A stretch of DNA of 64,000 nucleotides, from positions 329,638 to 393,637 of the forward strand of contig JAFDWU010000002.1 in assembly GCA_018268315.1 (NCBI GenBank). The letters are read 5' to 3'. The translations under genes were made by a program, and so were the position numbers. Shown one piece after another: positions 26,013 to 32,072 of the stretch. This stretch comes from Armatimonadota bacterium (lineage in GTDB: Bacteria > Armatimonadota > Fimbriimonadia > Fimbriimonadales > Fimbriimonadaceae). How positions within the stretch are numbered: position 1 is the first letter of the stretch; each line of letters starts with the position of its first letter. The notes below the pieces were generated by a model. That model did not search any database. It saw only the letters and a list, made by a program, of their open reading frames with translations, and was not told the DNA's origin.

Positions 26013-26036
26013 ATAACATTGTAGTTCTCTTGTTAT
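26013..26036. promoter_or_regulatory. Inverted repeat before the first YkgJ-family gene
   Basis: ATAACA and TGTTAT are separated by 12 bases, and the right arm overlaps the -10 box. TTGTTAT also occurs about 70 bases upstream. It is a possible operator, but the arms are short. Confidence 0.25.
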
Positions 26037-26039
26037 GAT
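26031..26039 (+). promoter_or_regulatory. Extended -10 box of the first YkgJ-family gene
   Basis: TG-T-TATGAT ends 6 bases before the GTG start at 26046, so the predicted message would begin at the start codon. No -35 box is apparent. Confidence 0.45.
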
Positions 26040-26045
26040 AGTGGT

Positions 26046-26771
26046 GTGCAGAAGATCAGCGGCGCACAAGCACAGATCGATGCCCAACTCGACGGCATCC
26101 GCTTGGTAGCGAGCGCCTTCGCCGGTTCTTGGTTGCACCACAGCAATCCGTCAGATCGGTTGCCCAAAGTCTTTTCAAAGCTCGCCATCTCGTGCGACGA
26201 CGCGATCAGCGAGTTTGAACGTCAGCGGGTCGCGACAGGAGATACCTTTACCTTAGCTTGCAAAAGCGGCTGCGATTACTGCTGTCGGCAATTCGTGGTA
26301 GCCACTCCGATGGAGGTATTTGCATTAGTTGCTTGGCTCAAGGAGAACAGAACCCCATCGGAAATTGACCAAATTAGACAGCGAGCAAACAGTTACTTAG
26401 AACTCTTTCTGGACAACGACCCTTCGTTGTTGAACTATCCTTGTCCTGTCCTAGAAGGCGGCATGTGCCAGGGGTATGGTGGCAGACCCTTCATTTGCCG
26501 CGGATATCACTCGTTCAACTTGGAAGCGTGCGAAAAGAAGTACGAGAAAGGGGATTCCTCGACCACTATTCCCTTCAATCGGCCCGCCTATCTTACGGCA
26601 GCGTACATGCGCATCTCGGTTGCCGCGAGAATCGCTGATCTGAAATACCCTTCCGCTCAAGTGTTCCTCGGCCCGGCCTTGGCGGTTGTGCTTCGCTTGG
26701 ATGACGGCCTTGAACGTTGGTTAAAGGGTGAGAACCTCTTTAGCGGCCTTGAATTCAAAGGTTCAACTTAA
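26046..26771 (+). CDS. YkgJ-family CxxxCxxCC protein, paralogue 1
   Basis: A 241-residue member of the YkgJ zinc/iron-chelating family (PF03692 type). An N-terminal helical region of about 70 residues precedes CKSGCDYCC (C72, C76, C79, C80). A second cluster follows: CPVLEGGMCQGYGGRPFICRGYHSF, with C133, C141 and C151, then C162. These eight cysteines probably hold a metal or cluster. The C-terminus ends in a conserved GENLFSGLEFK. It is the first of four tandem paralogues. The biochemical role of the family is unknown. GTG start, no ribosome-binding site seen. Confidence 0.87.
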   Translation: MQKISGAQAQIDAQLDGIRLVASAFAGSWLHHSNPSDRLPKVFSKLAISCDDAISEFERQRVATGDTFTLACKSGCDYCCRQFVVATPMEVFALVAWLKENRTPSEIDQIRQRANSYLELFLDNDPSLLNYPCPVLEGGMCQGYGGRPFICRGYHSFNLEACEKKYEKGDSSTTIPFNRPAYLTAAYMRISVAARIADLKYPSAQVFLGPALAVVLRLDDGLERWLKGENLFSGLEFKGST

Positions 26772-27079
26772 AGCTATCCGTCAAGAGCCTTGAACGGACC
26801 AAAGGAGGCTCTTCAGCTACTGCCTGCGCTTATCCATAAGATATTGCCTGCCCTTACGGATCTTCTCCTATTCTCTTAGGGGACAAGCCTCCGGCCCTAT
26901 TGCACCACCAGTTTGTTTGAAGGAGAGGGCAACTAACCCAGCTCTCATACTCTCAACGCACGGAGTCAATGTACTTACTATCCAGGTGTTATATATGTCA
27001 GACATTGAACCTGACTGAATCCAAACGGAATACTTACTGTTTTCAAAAGATCTGGGCCTCATTTGAAATGTTGTCACAC
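26772..27079. other. Long intergenic gap inside the YkgJ array
   Basis: About 300 bases with no supported gene. It holds a hairpin at 26783-26813 and AT-rich stretches (GTTATATATG near 26978) that could be promoter elements for paralogue 2. An open frame on the opposite strand across this gap and the next gene has no coding signature and is not called. Confidence 0.4.
26783..26813 (+). terminator. Weak hairpin after YkgJ paralogue 1
   Basis: AAGAGCCT pairs with AGGCTCTT across a 15-base loop, starting 11 bases beyond the stop. There is no T-run, so termination is uncertain. Confidence 0.35.
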
Positions 27080-27096
27080 TTTTCCTTTTAGGAAAA
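27080..27096 (+). promoter_or_regulatory. Hairpin over the start of YkgJ paralogue 2
   Basis: TTTTCC-TTTTA-GGAAAA is a perfect 6-bp inverted repeat. It contains the only Shine-Dalgarno-like AGGA and the first base of the ATG, so folding in RNA would mask initiation. Confidence 0.35.
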
Positions 27097-27842
27097 TGAG
27101 AGACACACAAGCAAGAATCAACGCCCAAATTGACGGCATTCGTTCGGTGGCAACTGCCTTTACCGGGTCGTGGTTGAGGCACAGCAATGCGCCTGATCGC
27201 CTCCCACAAGTCTTCTCGAAGTTGGCGGTCGTGTGCGACAAGGCCATCACCGATTTTGAGCGTCAAAGGATCGAAACGGGCGATCAGCACACCCTGGCAT
27301 GTAAGAGCGGCTGTGATCATTGTTGCCGTCACGAAACAGTTGTTGCAACACCTTTGGAAGTCTTCGCATTGGCCGCATGGATTCGCGAGAACCGAACAGT
27401 CCTCGAGATTCACCGGATCAAGGAGCGCGCGGAGGCGTACCTTGAGCACTTTCGGACAAACGATCCCTCCTGCCTTCCGTGTCCGGTTCTGGAAAATGGT
27501 GGCTGCCAGGGCTACGGCGGACGCCCGCTTATCTGCCGAGGCTATCACTCTTTCAGCCTCGACAGCTGCAGAAGGAAGTATCGAGGGCTGGACGACACCA
27601 TCCCGCACAACCGGCCAGCATATTTAGCCGCGGGGCACATGCGGGGATCAATCTCCGCAAAGATCAGCGAGCACAACCTTCCCGCGCCACAAGTCGTGCT
27701 TGGAGCCGCGCTTGCAATTGCGCTACGAGATGAGCAAGGCTTGGAGAGGTGGCTTTCCGGTGAAAACCTCTTTGAAGGGCTTGAATTCAAACTTCCCTAC
27801 GGCGCGCATCGTTCGGAAATTGAGTATATCAAGACACACTAA
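27096..27842 (+). CDS. YkgJ-family CxxxCxxCC protein, paralogue 2
   Basis: A 248-residue paralogue of the preceding gene, with the same layout: helical N-terminus (ARINAQIDGIRSVATAF), CKSGCDHCC, then CPVLENGGCQGYGGRPLICRGYHSF and the GENLFEGLEFK end. It carries one extra residue after the first cluster (RHETVVATP against RQFVVATP) and a unique tail of about 15 residues. The frame opens at a TTG at 27063, but the ATG at 27096 aligns with the paralogues and is preferred. Confidence 0.86.
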   Translation: MRDTQARINAQIDGIRSVATAFTGSWLRHSNAPDRLPQVFSKLAVVCDKAITDFERQRIETGDQHTLACKSGCDHCCRHETVVATPLEVFALAAWIRENRTVLEIHRIKERAEAYLEHFRTNDPSCLPCPVLENGGCQGYGGRPLICRGYHSFSLDSCRRKYRGLDDTIPHNRPAYLAAGHMRGSISAKISEHNLPAPQVVLGAALAIALRDEQGLERWLSGENLFEGLEFKLPYGAHRSEIEYIKTH

Positions 27843-27869
27843 GAACCCGATAGCCTAGTCATAATCGAG

Positions 27870-27879
27870 TTCTTAAGAA
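27870..27879. promoter_or_regulatory. Palindrome before YkgJ paralogue 3
   Basis: TTCTTAAGAA is a perfect 10-base palindrome directly before the GTG start, overlapping the AAGAAGG ribosome-binding site. A CATAAT -10-like box lies at 27860-27865. Confidence 0.3.
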
Positions 27880-27880
27880 G

Positions 27881-28597
27881 GTGAAAGAAGAACAGGAGAA
27901 GATCAAGGGGCAACTCGATGGCATTCGCATGGTAGCGAGCGCGTTTGCCAATTCATGGCTGCGCCATAGTGACCCAGCGAGCCGGCTCCCAACGGTCTTC
28001 TCGAAACTTGCAATCTCCTGCGACGATGCGATTTTTGCATTCGAGCGGCAGAGAGTTGAGTTCGGTGATCAAAACACCGTTGCGTGCAAAAGCGGGTGTG
28101 ATTACTGCTGCCGCCAACTGGTGGTTGCAACACCAATGGAAGTCTTCGCGCTGATTGCCTGGATTCGCGAAAACCGAACCGATGGAGAGATAAACGAGAT
28201 TAAAGATCGAGCGGAGCGCTACCTCGAACTCTTTCTTTCAAATGACCCATCTCTGCCCACTTCCCCCTGCCCGGTGCTGAAAGATGGACTCTGTTCCGGA
28301 TATGGTGGGCGTCCCTTTATTTGTCGCGGCTACCACTCCTTTGATTTGGGAGCTTGTGAAACGAAGTTCAAGCAGGAGAATGCTGATCTAGGCATCCCGC
28401 ACAACCATCCCGCCTATTTAACTGCCACTCTCATGCGAAATGAGGTGGCAGCGAAAATCAGTGAACTCAGTCGCCCTTCGCCGCAGGTCTACTTGGGGCC
28501 CGCAGTTGCAATCGCACTCAGAGAAGAGTGCTGCTTGGATAGGTGGCTAGCGGGCGAGAATGTCTTCGCCGGTCTGGAATACAAACCTTCCCCATAG
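27881..28597 (+). CDS. YkgJ-family CxxxCxxCC protein, paralogue 3
   Basis: A 238-residue paralogue closest to paralogue 1 (shared DGIRMVASAFANSWL, SKLAISCDDAI, CDYCCRQLVVATPMEVFAL). All eight cysteines are kept: CKSGCDYCC, then CPVLKDGLCSGYGGRPFICRGYHSF and the following Cys. It starts at GTG 38 bases after paralogue 2, behind an AAGAAGG ribosome-binding site. The array reads as recent duplication, with divergence concentrated outside the cysteine clusters. Confidence 0.87.
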   Translation: MKEEQEKIKGQLDGIRMVASAFANSWLRHSDPASRLPTVFSKLAISCDDAIFAFERQRVEFGDQNTVACKSGCDYCCRQLVVATPMEVFALIAWIRENRTDGEINEIKDRAERYLELFLSNDPSLPTSPCPVLKDGLCSGYGGRPFICRGYHSFDLGACETKFKQENADLGIPHNHPAYLTATLMRNEVAAKISELSRPSPQVYLGPAVAIALREECCLDRWLAGENVFAGLEYKPSP

Positions 28598-28623
28598 CGC
28601 GCCTCCGCAAGTTCAAATGGCGA

Positions 28624-28643
28624 ATGTATACTGATTGATACAT
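28624..28643. promoter_or_regulatory. Inverted repeat and -10 box at the start of YkgJ paralogue 4
   Basis: ATGTAT-N8-ATACAT is a perfect 6-bp inverted repeat whose right arm overlaps the ATG at 28642. TATACT (28627-28632) inside it resembles a -10 box 9 bases before the start codon, again implying a nearly leaderless message. Confidence 0.35.
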
Positions 28644-29379
28644 GCGTCCAGGGCAGAACCAGGCAGTTCAACAGAAAATCGACGGCAACCGGCAATTCGC
28701 AAGCGCCTACGTTGGCACATGGCTCGCGAAGGAAGACGCGCTGGAACGAACCGGTAAGGTGTTTTCCAAGCTTGCCTTGGCGGCCGACGCGGCACTGGAA
28801 GAGTGGGAAGAGATGCGCAAGCAATCCGGCGACTCCCACGAAATGGCCTGCAAAGACGGTTGCGATTATTGCTGCCGCCAACCGGTGATGGTTACGCCCC
28901 TTGAAGTCTTCGCGCTCGCCGATTGGCTGAAAGCCAATCTGAAGAAGCCCGACCTTGATGATCTTTCAAAAAGAGCAAGCGAATATCTAAACGCAATGCA
29001 GAAATGCGAAGGATTCGGCGAATACCCGGATGTCGCGAGAACGGCCTGTCCGGTTCTGAAGGATCACCGTTGCTCCGGCTATGAGGCTCGCCCCTTTATG
29101 TGTAGGGCATATCACTCATTTAGCTTGGAGCAGTGTATCGAGCGTTTCGAGCATGGTGATTCAAAACCAGTCGATCACAATAGCCCGGCCCTCTATGCCG
29201 CAGTGATGCACCGCGTTGGCGCCGCCCAAAAGATCCACGAAATGGGCAAGCCATCCCCTCAAGTCGTTCTCGGGGGAGCAATTGCGATTGCGCTAACCGA
29301 AAAAGACGTCGAACAAAGATGGCTTAACGGCGAGAATGTATTCGCGCGCGCCGAAGTAAAGTCGCCCAATCAGGCCTAA
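28642..29379 (+). CDS. YkgJ-family CxxxCxxCC protein, paralogue 4
   Basis: A 245-residue protein, the most diverged of the four tandem paralogues. The first cluster is CKDGCDYCCRQPVMVTPLEVFAL. The second has CPVLKDHRCSGYEARPFMCRAYHSF, with an inserted loop (KCEGFGEYPDVARTA) before it that adds a cysteine. The N-terminus keeps the Gln-rich helix and the tail keeps GENVFARAE. It is older or under different constraints than the first three. No known reaction. Confidence 0.86.
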   Translation: MRPGQNQAVQQKIDGNRQFASAYVGTWLAKEDALERTGKVFSKLALAADAALEEWEEMRKQSGDSHEMACKDGCDYCCRQPVMVTPLEVFALADWLKANLKKPDLDDLSKRASEYLNAMQKCEGFGEYPDVARTACPVLKDHRCSGYEARPFMCRAYHSFSLEQCIERFEHGDSKPVDHNSPALYAAVMHRVGAAQKIHEMGKPSPQVVLGGAIAIALTEKDVEQRWLNGENVFARAEVKSPNQA

Positions 29380-29409: not shown

Positions 29410-29931
29410 ATGTCGTTGAATGCGTTGACTCTCATAGTTTTGGTGTCCGCCCAGACTCCAAACCAATCGACAGACATTATCGACAAGGTCTTGCATGGCG
29501 ATCATTTCCGAACCGCCTCGGCAAGCACCTCTCCAAGCCCTCTGCTCTCATTTCAACTCAGGATGAAGATCCTTGGTGGAATGCCGCGAACCAAGATCTG
29601 GGATTCATTGAATATTTATCTCGGCCGCGCCAAGCCAACCAGGAAGGATTACGAAATGGGAACAGAACTGGCGTTGCGAGAGGAGGACATCTTTGTGCTC
29701 AGCCAATTTATCTACCGCAGCATCCTCGCTCCGCCCAAAGCGGTCGGCAATGGGCATTGGGTCGCAAGCCCAACCGACATTTTGGGAAATCATTGGTTCC
29801 TCTCGGACACCGGCTGGAGGCTATTGCCTTACGGCGCGGTTTCGATTAAAGGCGCGCCGCTTGCGCTCGATGCCTCCTCCCATTTCATGGACCTAGAAAA
29901 GAAGCTCCTTGCCAGCCGCAAGAAGAAATAG
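29410..29931 (+). CDS. Hypothetical secreted protein, 173 aa
   Basis: Not recognised. It starts with a very short hydrophobic leader, MSLNALTLIVLVSAQTP, that lacks the usual basic residues. The mature part is mixed alpha/beta and ends in a Lys-rich tail (LLASRKKK). A good AAGGAG site lies 9 bases before the ATG. It may be read through from the YkgJ array 30 bases upstream. Confidence 0.65.
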   Translation: MSLNALTLIVLVSAQTPNQSTDIIDKVLHGDHFRTASASTSPSPLLSFQLRMKILGGMPRTKIWDSLNIYLGRAKPTRKDYEMGTELALREEDIFVLSQFIYRSILAPPKAVGNGHWVASPTDILGNHWFLSDTGWRLLPYGAVSIKGAPLALDASSHFMDLEKKLLASRKKK

Positions 29932-29945
29932 CAGGTGAGTTGAAT

Positions 29946-30276
29946 TCAGGCGAGTCGGCCTGTAAGCCGGATTCTGTCTTTGTGTGACGATTTGTCTATG
30001 CGACCAACCCGGAGGGTCCGCGAGCAGCCTCATCCCCTCCCTATTTGGTCTTGCTTCCAGTGGGGTTTGCCCGGCAACCCGGTTACCCAAGGTTCCGGTG
30101 AGCTCTTACCTCACCTTTTCACCCTTATCCTGGGTTTCCCCAAGACGGTTTAGTTTCTGTGGCACTTTCCGTCGGGTCGCCCCGCCCCGGCTTGCGCCGG
30201 GCACTGCGCTCTTTGAAGTCCGGACTTTCCTCCCCTGGACCGAAGCCCAGCAGCCGTCACCCGGCCGACTCGTGGA
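29946..30276 (-). ncRNA. rnpB: RNase P RNA (bacterial type A)
   Basis: Catalytic RNA that cuts tRNA 5' leaders. Read on the minus strand it has the conserved GAGGAAAGTCCGGAC near the 5' end, then GGAAAGTGCCACAGAAA, GGGTGAAAAGGTG, and the 3' ACAGAATCCGGCTTACAGG. The ends pair as P1 (CGAGTCGGCC with GGCCGACTCG), fixing the limits to within a few bases. A CATAAT box at plus-strand 30280-30285 is correctly placed for a start near 30273. Confidence 0.96.
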
Positions 30277-30279
30277 GGA

Positions 30280-30285
30280 ATTATG
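30280..30285 (-). promoter_or_regulatory. Candidate -10 box of rnpB
   Basis: CATAAT on the minus strand lies 6 bases upstream of the predicted RNase P RNA 5' end. Confidence 0.4.
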
Positions 30286-30332
30286 ACCCAGCCTGGAACC
30301 TTCGGACGGGTTCGAAGTGTAGAAGAAGGTGC

Positions 30333-32072
30333 GTGGGGATAATTCAAGAACCGATAAGAGGGGAGCCGCTTAACCTGAATTCGGCTAATTCGCTGATCCG
30401 CGAGATTCGCGGAAAGGATATCGGCGCGGTTGATGCTGGGTCTCTGGCCCAAGCAACCGGCCTTAGCTACGCGCTTGTTTCGACCACGCTTCAGCAAATG
30501 CGCGAGGCAAACGACCTCGACAAGCACGACAGTTTTCTGAAGGACTCGCGCAAACTGGGCGATTACGTGAGAGACCTCGCCTCGCGATTGACCGCAAGAC
30601 CGGTTCTCTTCACGGCAGCTAGTTCCGCCGTCTGTATCGGCGTTTGCTTAGGCCTTAAAGCGGCCTCCGTGGCACATCCCGCGCTTGCCAATGGCATCTA
30701 TGCCGCGATGCTGCTCACCCTCGCCGCCCAGCTTTCGACTTACTATCATCACGGACTGGCCCGGGTCGCTTTATACGGGTCGCTTGTCAATTGGCTGATG
30801 ATCGTGGGTCTGGCAACCTTTGAACTCTGGGATCAAGAGCCTGACCACCAACTGCATTGGCTAGCTGCGGTATCTCTCACCACATTCCTGCTGATGACGC
30901 CCTACGTGCTTGCCTCCTCGTTGGCGGCAGTCGCTGGTGGCTATCGGTGCTGGAAATCGGTTGAACATCATCTAGCCAACCTTACGCGCCACGAAAAACT
31001 TCAGCGCCTCTTCGAAATCCGCCGGATCATTCGGGACCAGCAAGTTAAAGACAAGCCCGTGCGGCCAGCTCGCATGACGGCAGTCTGGCAGGCACAGTAT
31101 CGCGCTCGGCCATGGCTTCACTCTGCAGTTTTAGGGGTCTCCAGCAGCCTTCTGGGACTTGCGGTTCTGCGCCTTACAAACACTTCTATTCAACCTGCCT
31201 CGCTTCCGTCGCTCACTCAGTTGATGGCGCTCACCTCGCTTGCCACTCTTAACCTCACGATGGTGGTCGGAATTGCGTTCCTGCTTGGGCGCTTTAGCCG
31301 TGCGGCAATCAATCTGATTTGGCTAACCGCGTGGAGCACCGCTACGATGTACATCCCGATCGCCCCCTATGGAAGCGCGTTCGCCCAACGGTTCTTGAGC
31401 GCGGAGATGCTTATTCCCCAAATGGCCCTGCTATTCGCGGCGACGGTGCTTGGTTCGGTGGGCGCAGCGGTAGAAGAGCGGGCAGCGAAATCTCGGCGAT
31501 TGCACGAGAATGACCCCGCCGCGCTCCTCGCCGAGCTTGCCCGATTGGAGCTTAGCCTTGCTGCCGGTGAGCGAGAAGTCACCGTGCTCGTGGTCGATGT
31601 GGCGAAAAGCACGGAAATGAAGGCGAACTCCGATCCGCTCGATGCCGAGTACAGCTTCCGCGAGTACCAGCAGTTACTGGCGCGAATCACGCACCTTTAC
31701 GGCGGCACCGTGCATTCAACCGCGGGCGATGGCGCGGTGCTTACGTTCGAAGAGCCATCCTCGGCGTTTAGAGCGGCGAAAGAAATCCAAACCAAGATCA
31801 GCGAGTTCAACGAGAGCGTGAACCGATTGCCGTCGAAATTCCGCCTTCGAGTGGGAATCCACGCCGGGCAAGTGCCGGGCGAGCTTTCCGAAGTCCAGTT
31901 CAGCGAGGTCATTGATATCGCCGCCCACGTCCAGGCAAAAGCGCCCCTCCGCGGCATTCTCGTTACAAAAGAAGTTGCGGAGCAACTGGGCGACGAGGAG
32001 CTGATTCCGCTCAAAGAGCCGGTAGACGGCCACGAAGTGCTGCTGGCGTACAATCCTGTCGTTGACGAATAA
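30333..32072 (+). CDS. Membrane class III adenylate/guanylate cyclase
   Basis: A 579-residue protein. The N-terminal 60 residues look like a small helical, HTH-like domain (SLAQATGLSYALVSTTLQQM). About eight membrane helices follow to residue 370, then a class III cyclase domain from about 412 to the end. The metal-binding Asp is in VVDVAKST, and AGDGAVLTF supplies the second. The usual VNxAxR is replaced by VIDIAAHVQ, so the catalytic Asn and Arg look like Asp and His. Activity is therefore uncertain. The GTG at 30333 follows AGAAGAAGG; a longer frame would overlap rnpB and is rejected. lipB overlaps its end by 11 bases. Confidence 0.8.
   Translation: MGIIQEPIRGEPLNLNSANSLIREIRGKDIGAVDAGSLAQATGLSYALVSTTLQQMREANDLDKHDSFLKDSRKLGDYVRDLASRLTARPVLFTAASSAVCIGVCLGLKAASVAHPALANGIYAAMLLTLAAQLSTYYHHGLARVALYGSLVNWLMIVGLATFELWDQEPDHQLHWLAAVSLTTFLLMTPYVLASSLAAVAGGYRCWKSVEHHLANLTRHEKLQRLFEIRRIIRDQQVKDKPVRPARMTAVWQAQYRARPWLHSAVLGVSSSLLGLAVLRLTNTSIQPASLPSLTQLMALTSLATLNLTMVVGIAFLLGRFSRAAINLIWLTAWSTATMYIPIAPYGSAFAQRFLSAEMLIPQMALLFAATVLGSVGAAVEERAAKSRRLHENDPAALLAELARLELSLAAGEREVTVLVVDVAKSTEMKANSDPLDAEYSFREYQQLLARITHLYGGTVHSTAGDGAVLTFEEPSSAFRAAKEIQTKISEFNESVNRLPSKFRLRVGIHAGQVPGELSEVQFSEVIDIAAHVQAKAPLRGILVTKEVAEQLGDEELIPLKEPVDGHEVLLAYNPVVDE

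Follow-up and report, generated by a model that had tools for sequence, protein, structure and literature searches.

The DNA analysed here, referred to as the window, is a stretch of 64,000 nucleotides from the contig JAFDWU010000002.1 (positions 329,638 to 393,637) of an Armatimonadota bacterium of the family Fimbriimonadaceae. It carries a tandem array of four paralogous genes, P1 to P4, all on the forward strand and all encoding stand-alone proteins with eight cysteines and a YkgJ-type CxxxCxxCC cluster. P1 (26046-26771, 241 residues) and P3 (27881-28597, 238 residues, the copy used for structure prediction) start with GTG. P2 (27096-27842, 248 residues) is extended at its C-terminus and has one inserted residue directly past the CxxxCxxCCR motif, and P4 (28642-29379, 245 residues, ATG start) is the most diverged copy and has an extra cysteine-bearing loop. 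The gaps between the successive genes measure 324, 38 and 44 bases, respectively; a search of the P1-P2 gap for a remnant copy gave weak tblastn matches only (best E 0.15). An earlier reading of the window, made from the letters and their translations and referred to below as the sequence-only reading, had described four YkgJ-type paralogues of 238-248 residues in the same direction, and both the open reading frames (ORFs) and the matches to the PF03692 family confirm this description.

PF03692 is the only domain that the domain search found in P1-P4, and the catalytic domain of glycosyltransferase family 41 (GT41) was not found in them. The E values of the profile search were 8.6e-5, 1.9e-4, 2.9e-5 and 4.7e-6 for P1 to P4, respectively, with P1, P3 and P4 above the curated cut-off and P2 0.5 bit under it (22.5 vs. 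23 bits); in genome-wide scoring all four lie above the cut-off. In the alignment eight cysteines are invariant (C72, C76, C79, C80, C133, C141, C151 and C162 in P1 numbering) and the motifs CR[GA]YHSF and GEN[LV]F are kept in every copy, as had been noticed before. The array proteins thus share with YkgJ and PF03692 the CxxxCxxCC cluster, the CPxL..C..Y..RPxxCR block, the eight conserved cysteines and profile scores close to the cut-off or higher. However, the E. coli YkgJ has 109 residues, judged by its coordinates, whereas P1-P4 have about 240 and possess two long N-terminal helices as well as a C-terminal part that is helical and ends in GENxF.

All three pairs among P1-P3 are 63-67% identical in amino acid sequence, while the identity of P4 to them is 43-45%. 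P4 also contains a 5-residue insertion and one extra cysteine (KCEGFGEY) ahead of the second cysteine block. The sequence-only reading was right in calling P4 the most diverged copy and in giving it an extra cysteine-bearing loop; for its other suggestion, that P1 and P3 lie closest to each other, the support is weak (93/75), with similar identities in the three pairs. A tree of the cysteine modules places P1-P4 in one clade (support 100/99). Maximum likelihood estimates of the ratio of nonsynonymous to synonymous substitutions (dN/dS) are about 0.03-0.13 among the copies, which are rough values since dS is saturated. The highest DNA identity between copies in any 90-base window is ≤78%, so the array shows no sign of recent gene conversion. 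Based on the divergence, the saturated dS, the low dN/dS and this lack of signs of gene conversion, P1-P4 are old tandem duplicates, probably all retained by selection. The GC content of the array is near that of the window.

The AlphaFold2 model of P3 (mean predicted local distance difference test score, pLDDT, 84; predicted template modelling score, pTM, 0.86; the other four models had pLDDT values of 53-60) is mostly helical around the cysteine core. It predicts two N-terminal helices (residues 2-27 and 32-60), in agreement with the helical region proposed by the sequence-only reading. Foldseek searches with this model gave a best E value of 0.48 in PDB and 0.34 in BFVD, VIA-align gave a top Z score of 4.6 to an unrelated protein, and the profile of P1-P4 had no match among sequences of solved structures. 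Such weak matches of a predicted model are not evidence for a new fold. The module, of about 27 kDa, is presumably cytoplasmic, and its eight-cysteine core probably holds an iron-sulfur (Fe-S) or zinc cluster.

The source genome of the window (G000, 2.8 Mb) has six PF03692 matches, i.e. the four array genes and two reading frames of 720 and 743 residues. The latter encode fusion proteins in which PF03692 is N-terminal and a GT41 domain of the OGT/SPINDLY family is C-terminal, and no further GT41 protein was found in G000. A full-length counterpart of the array module is thus fused to a glycosyltransferase elsewhere in the genome, which lay beyond the view that the window offered to the sequence-only reading. 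Altogether the 291 genomes of the phylum yielded ten full-length fusions, in five genomes that belong to one family; the scan scored three candidates per genome and could thus have overlooked copies where a genome has many. A profile of 18 stand-alone proteins aligned by HHalign to the N-terminus of the fusions with a probability of 100 and an E value of 3.9e-44 over 229 columns. This alignment runs from end to end, over helices, cysteine blocks and tail, so what P1-P4 and the GT41 fusions have in common is, by sequence comparison, a whole module of about 235 residues and not a mere motif. The eight cysteines are kept in all ten fusions.

The GT41 halves match human OGT, SPINDLY and bacterial OGTs in PDB (best E 4e-38 to 1e-29), and the lysine that aligns with the catalytic lysine of OGT, which we take to be residue 842, is invariant in the fusions. 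In related GT41 proteins from this bacterial family the N-terminus carries tetratricopeptide repeats (TPRs). The long GT41 proteins seen in other relatives do not hide a decayed cysteine module, a possibility that had been considered; TPRs are present instead. One TPR-GT41 gene, in genome G059 (L212:4913-7201), is split into two ORFs, with two in-frame TAA codons within the profile match. In the tree of the GT41 halves the fusions form one clade (support 99) that is sister to the TPR forms. On the evidence of domain order and this tree, the eight-cysteine module replaces, in the fusions, the acceptor-binding TPR domain of related GT41 enzymes. Three GT41 proteins with neither TPRs nor a cysteine module are nested in the fusion clade, two in genome G019 (499 and 501 residues) and one, cut by a contig end, in G012. 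The two G019 proteins have probably lost the module since they branch from within the fusions of that genome. Tandem pairs occur among the fusions as well: G060 has two adjacent fusions, and in G019 two adjacent fusions and, behind them, one of the two module-less GT41 proteins occupy L026:6482-12357, while the other is encoded elsewhere in the genome (L211:4781-6286).

A relative of the array proteins was found with the array profile in 15 out of 113 genomes of the class, and stand-alone homologues in 14 out of 113. These are mostly single and scattered, in keeping with the earlier statement that YkgJ-type genes usually occur alone, and no gene is common to their listed neighbourhoods as judged by eye. 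No second array of stand-alone copies was found among the 113 genomes, so the four-copy array is seen in one genome only. Because the outside homologues are scattered and lack a common neighbourhood, the array is, as far as the compared genomes tell, a lineage-specific expansion and not a conserved locus. The sequence-only reading had named two signs of a merely coincidental array; one of them, the fall of the four copies into distant clades, is contradicted by the tree, while the other, scattered homologues without a common neighbourhood, is what we see. Outside the phylum, a single broad scan guided by organism names gave two stand-alone relatives in Polyangiaceae, and further stand-alone members, among them plasmid genes with a YkgJ family annotation, sit in varied contexts. 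The Pseudomonas syringae plasmid NZ_CP005971.1 has a CxxxCxxCC ORF of 248 residues on the forward strand (L102:3809 onwards) for which the plasmid table, itself incomplete, lists no gene.

P1-P4, the stand-alone proteins of G059, G019 and G012 (together termed clade A) and the fusions fall into a clade of 18 rows with a support of 95/98, in which the unity of clade A itself is not firmly supported. Fusions are present in all four genomes that have clade A proteins, compared to five out of 113 genomes overall (naive Fisher test, p 8e-7). For stand-alone types that do not belong to clade A this link is absent (a fusion in one out of 11 genomes, p 0.41). On a tree of RpoB no informative pair opposes the association of fusions with clade A.

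The favoured explanation, to which we assign a probability of roughly 45%, is that P1-P4 are trans-acting, cluster-containing partners or acceptor-binding subunits of a cytoplasmic protein O-glycosylation system. We propose this because a full-length twin of the module is built into the GT41 enzymes of the same bacterium. The co-occurrence of clade A with the fusions and the GT41 proteins of G019 and G012 that lack any N-terminal module speak for it as well. FlmG joins TPRs to a glycosyltransferase; its TPR half is able to bind the acceptor flagellins by itself, and sugar transfer is the task of the other half (PMC7591256). Since the eight-cysteine module sits where the acceptor-binding half of FlmG-type enzymes sits, the most straightforward view is that it would recruit or prepare acceptor proteins for GT41 in place of the TPR domain. 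P1-P4 might then act in trans with the fusion enzymes, each free copy binding its own set of acceptors and presenting them to the glycosyltransferase, or else regulating the latter. If each copy had its own acceptors, the array would widen the acceptor range, and acceptor binding could possibly be under redox or iron control via the cluster. One of the two fusions of the source genome lies near UDP-amino-sugar genes of the RmlD, PseB/FnlA, WecB and NeuD types, a neighbourhood seen only once; it is possible that these genes are the donor pathway. A bolder version, which we regard as doubtful, is a split modular O-glycosylation in which interchangeable, redox- or iron-sensitive eight-cysteine modules, either fused to GT41 or free and multiplied, would pick the acceptors instead of TPRs, so that glycosylation would depend on the cluster.

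Several points weigh against the favoured explanation. The array adjoins no GT41 gene, and unrelated housekeeping genes surround it. The source genome has four free copies and no GT41 protein without its own N-terminal module, therefore the free copies would need either to share enzymes that have built-in modules, or to regulate them, or to be separate enzymes. The co-occurrence rests on five non-independent genomes, and the clades were picked after the tree had been viewed. The RpoB tree gives four changes for the fusion trait and three for clade A, which is too few for a sign test. For a fragment at a contig end in G048, a genome in which no full fusion was found, the tree gave no definite position, and the deep branches became less firm when it was added. 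Finally, no fold match in PDB tells the function of the module.

It is instructive to compare the array proteins with FliB, the only biochemically studied comparison for the YkgJ-type family that turned up in our searches. FliB methylates the lysines of flagellin, needs S-adenosylmethionine (SAM) and a reducing environment, binds one [4Fe-4S] cluster via CX4CX3CC, i.e. the first four of its eight conserved cysteines, and has no other known domain (PMC8598068). The main rival explanation is accordingly that P1-P4 are FliB-like, SAM-dependent [4Fe-4S] protein methylases or other Fe-S protein-modifying enzymes. The fusions would then be enzymes with two activities that methylate and glycosylate one acceptor, and the array would provide four enzymes for four acceptor sets. 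The FliB and FliB-like proteins of the phylum, found with the model NF038110, have eight invariant cysteines (C18, C23, C27, C28, C81, C90, C105 and C127) in the same 4+1+1+1+1 order as P1-P4. An HHalign comparison of the cysteine cores with FliB plus intermediates gave a probability of 90 and an E value of 1.5e-6 over 81 columns, and four flagellins are encoded in the source genome. However, the match to two clear FliB sequences alone is not significant, P1-P4 have no NCBIfam match at E ≤ 1, hence none to NF038110, and the part of about 300 residues behind the cysteine core of FliB has no counterpart in them. There is no FliB in the source genome at E ≤ 0.01. Moreover, clade A and fusions are present in G059 (99% complete) and G012, in which flagellin is absent. 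We consider this rival rather unlikely. A distant common cysteine core with FliB is likely from the profile comparison, even though P1-P4 are not recognised as members of FliB, and because of this putative common core an Fe-S cluster seems a better guess than zinc for P1-P4. FliB-model matches over the curated cut-off occur in three genomes of the phylum outside the class of the window (G133:C1:2517951-2519114, termed L200, as well as L201 and L202).

The four flagellins of the source genome equal the array copies in number, which makes a link tempting. However, flagellin is encoded in 98 out of 113 genomes of the class but is absent in two of the five with clade A or fusions, which excludes it as an obligatory target; it may be one acceptor among others, but it is not the general acceptor. 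Several relatives, e.g. G009, G067, G075, G080, G097, G098 and G100, have GT41 genes at a distance of no more than a few kb from flagellin genes, and this proximity suggests, by analogy, an FlmG-like glycosylation of flagellin in those bacteria.

Another explanation is that P1-P4 are carriers, scavengers or sensors of metals or Fe-S clusters, for example a store, a cluster donor or a redox switch, and that the likeness to the GT41 fusions is a case of domain reuse. The family description of PF03692 gives a putative role in the chelation of zinc or iron, and the varied contexts of the stand-alone members mentioned above would suit such a role. On the other hand, eight cysteines per about 240 residues are few for a metal store, which disfavours that version, and conservation spans the whole module including its helical parts. 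Clade A tracks the fusions in its distribution, and no metal-transport or regulator gene is among the array neighbours that were examined. The metal store and the maturation factor that the sequence-only reading had suggested found no positive support. We hold this explanation to be unlikely. It is less likely again that the copies are the outcome of tandem duplication with no special partnership, retained by dosage or drift. The scattered, mostly single homologues and the confinement of the array to one genome speak for it, but the copies are old (33-57% amino acid difference) and yet have kept the eight cysteines and the motifs at the low dN/dS given above, and tandem pairs arose independently among the fusions of G019 and G060. 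A defence-type variable array, which the sequence-only reading had offered as one option, and a phage origin find no support, since neither P1-P4, nor the product of the gene at 29410, nor the two fusions of the source genome has a PADLOC match at E ≤ 0.01, and no relative was found in viral contigs or phages.

The surroundings of the array are of a general kind, with a galactokinase and an M42 peptidase upstream, and an RNase P RNA and a cyclase-domain protein downstream. An ORF of 173 residues without a known family (29410-29931, forward strand) starts 30 bases past P4 and is possibly co-transcribed with it. It is an orphan that has no homologue in 40 related genomes; for this reason it gives no clue to the array, and a partnership of the two was dropped. 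Directly downstream of it lies the class A RNase P RNA (29947-30272, reverse strand, 262.6 bits). The cyclase-domain gene has a long ORF (30159-32072) whose first start codons fall within this RNA, so the true start of the gene is probably near 30339 or later. A consensus scan upstream of P1-P4 found no promoter-like site, and terminator-like sites were not above chance. Two hexamers that the scan did not call are TATGAT (26034-26039), which ends 6 nucleotides before the GTG of P1, and TATACT (28627-28632), which ends 9 nucleotides before the ATG of P4. Their positions would fit leaderless or near-leaderless transcripts, i.e. separate promoters within the array.

The GT41 enzymes, i.e. OGT, SPINDLY and FlmG of Caulobacter, are well known, and so is PF03692. 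The fused relatives of the array proteins carry the GT41 catalytic half with its invariant catalytic lysine region but have the eight-cysteine module instead of TPRs, while P1-P4 lack the catalytic domain. What is new is this swap of the module for TPRs, the coexistence of stand-alone and fused versions within single genomes and the array of four copies; a search of one literature collection found no paper that links YkgJ and GT41. The unusual copy number and the previously undescribed role that the sequence-only reading had pointed to are upheld. YkgJ-type proteins are widespread and their function is almost wholly unknown, and the fusion provides a testable context for them, namely protein modification. 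Should the array act in trans with the fusion enzymes, it would represent a new way to set which proteins get glycosylated, perhaps under the control of an Fe-S cluster.

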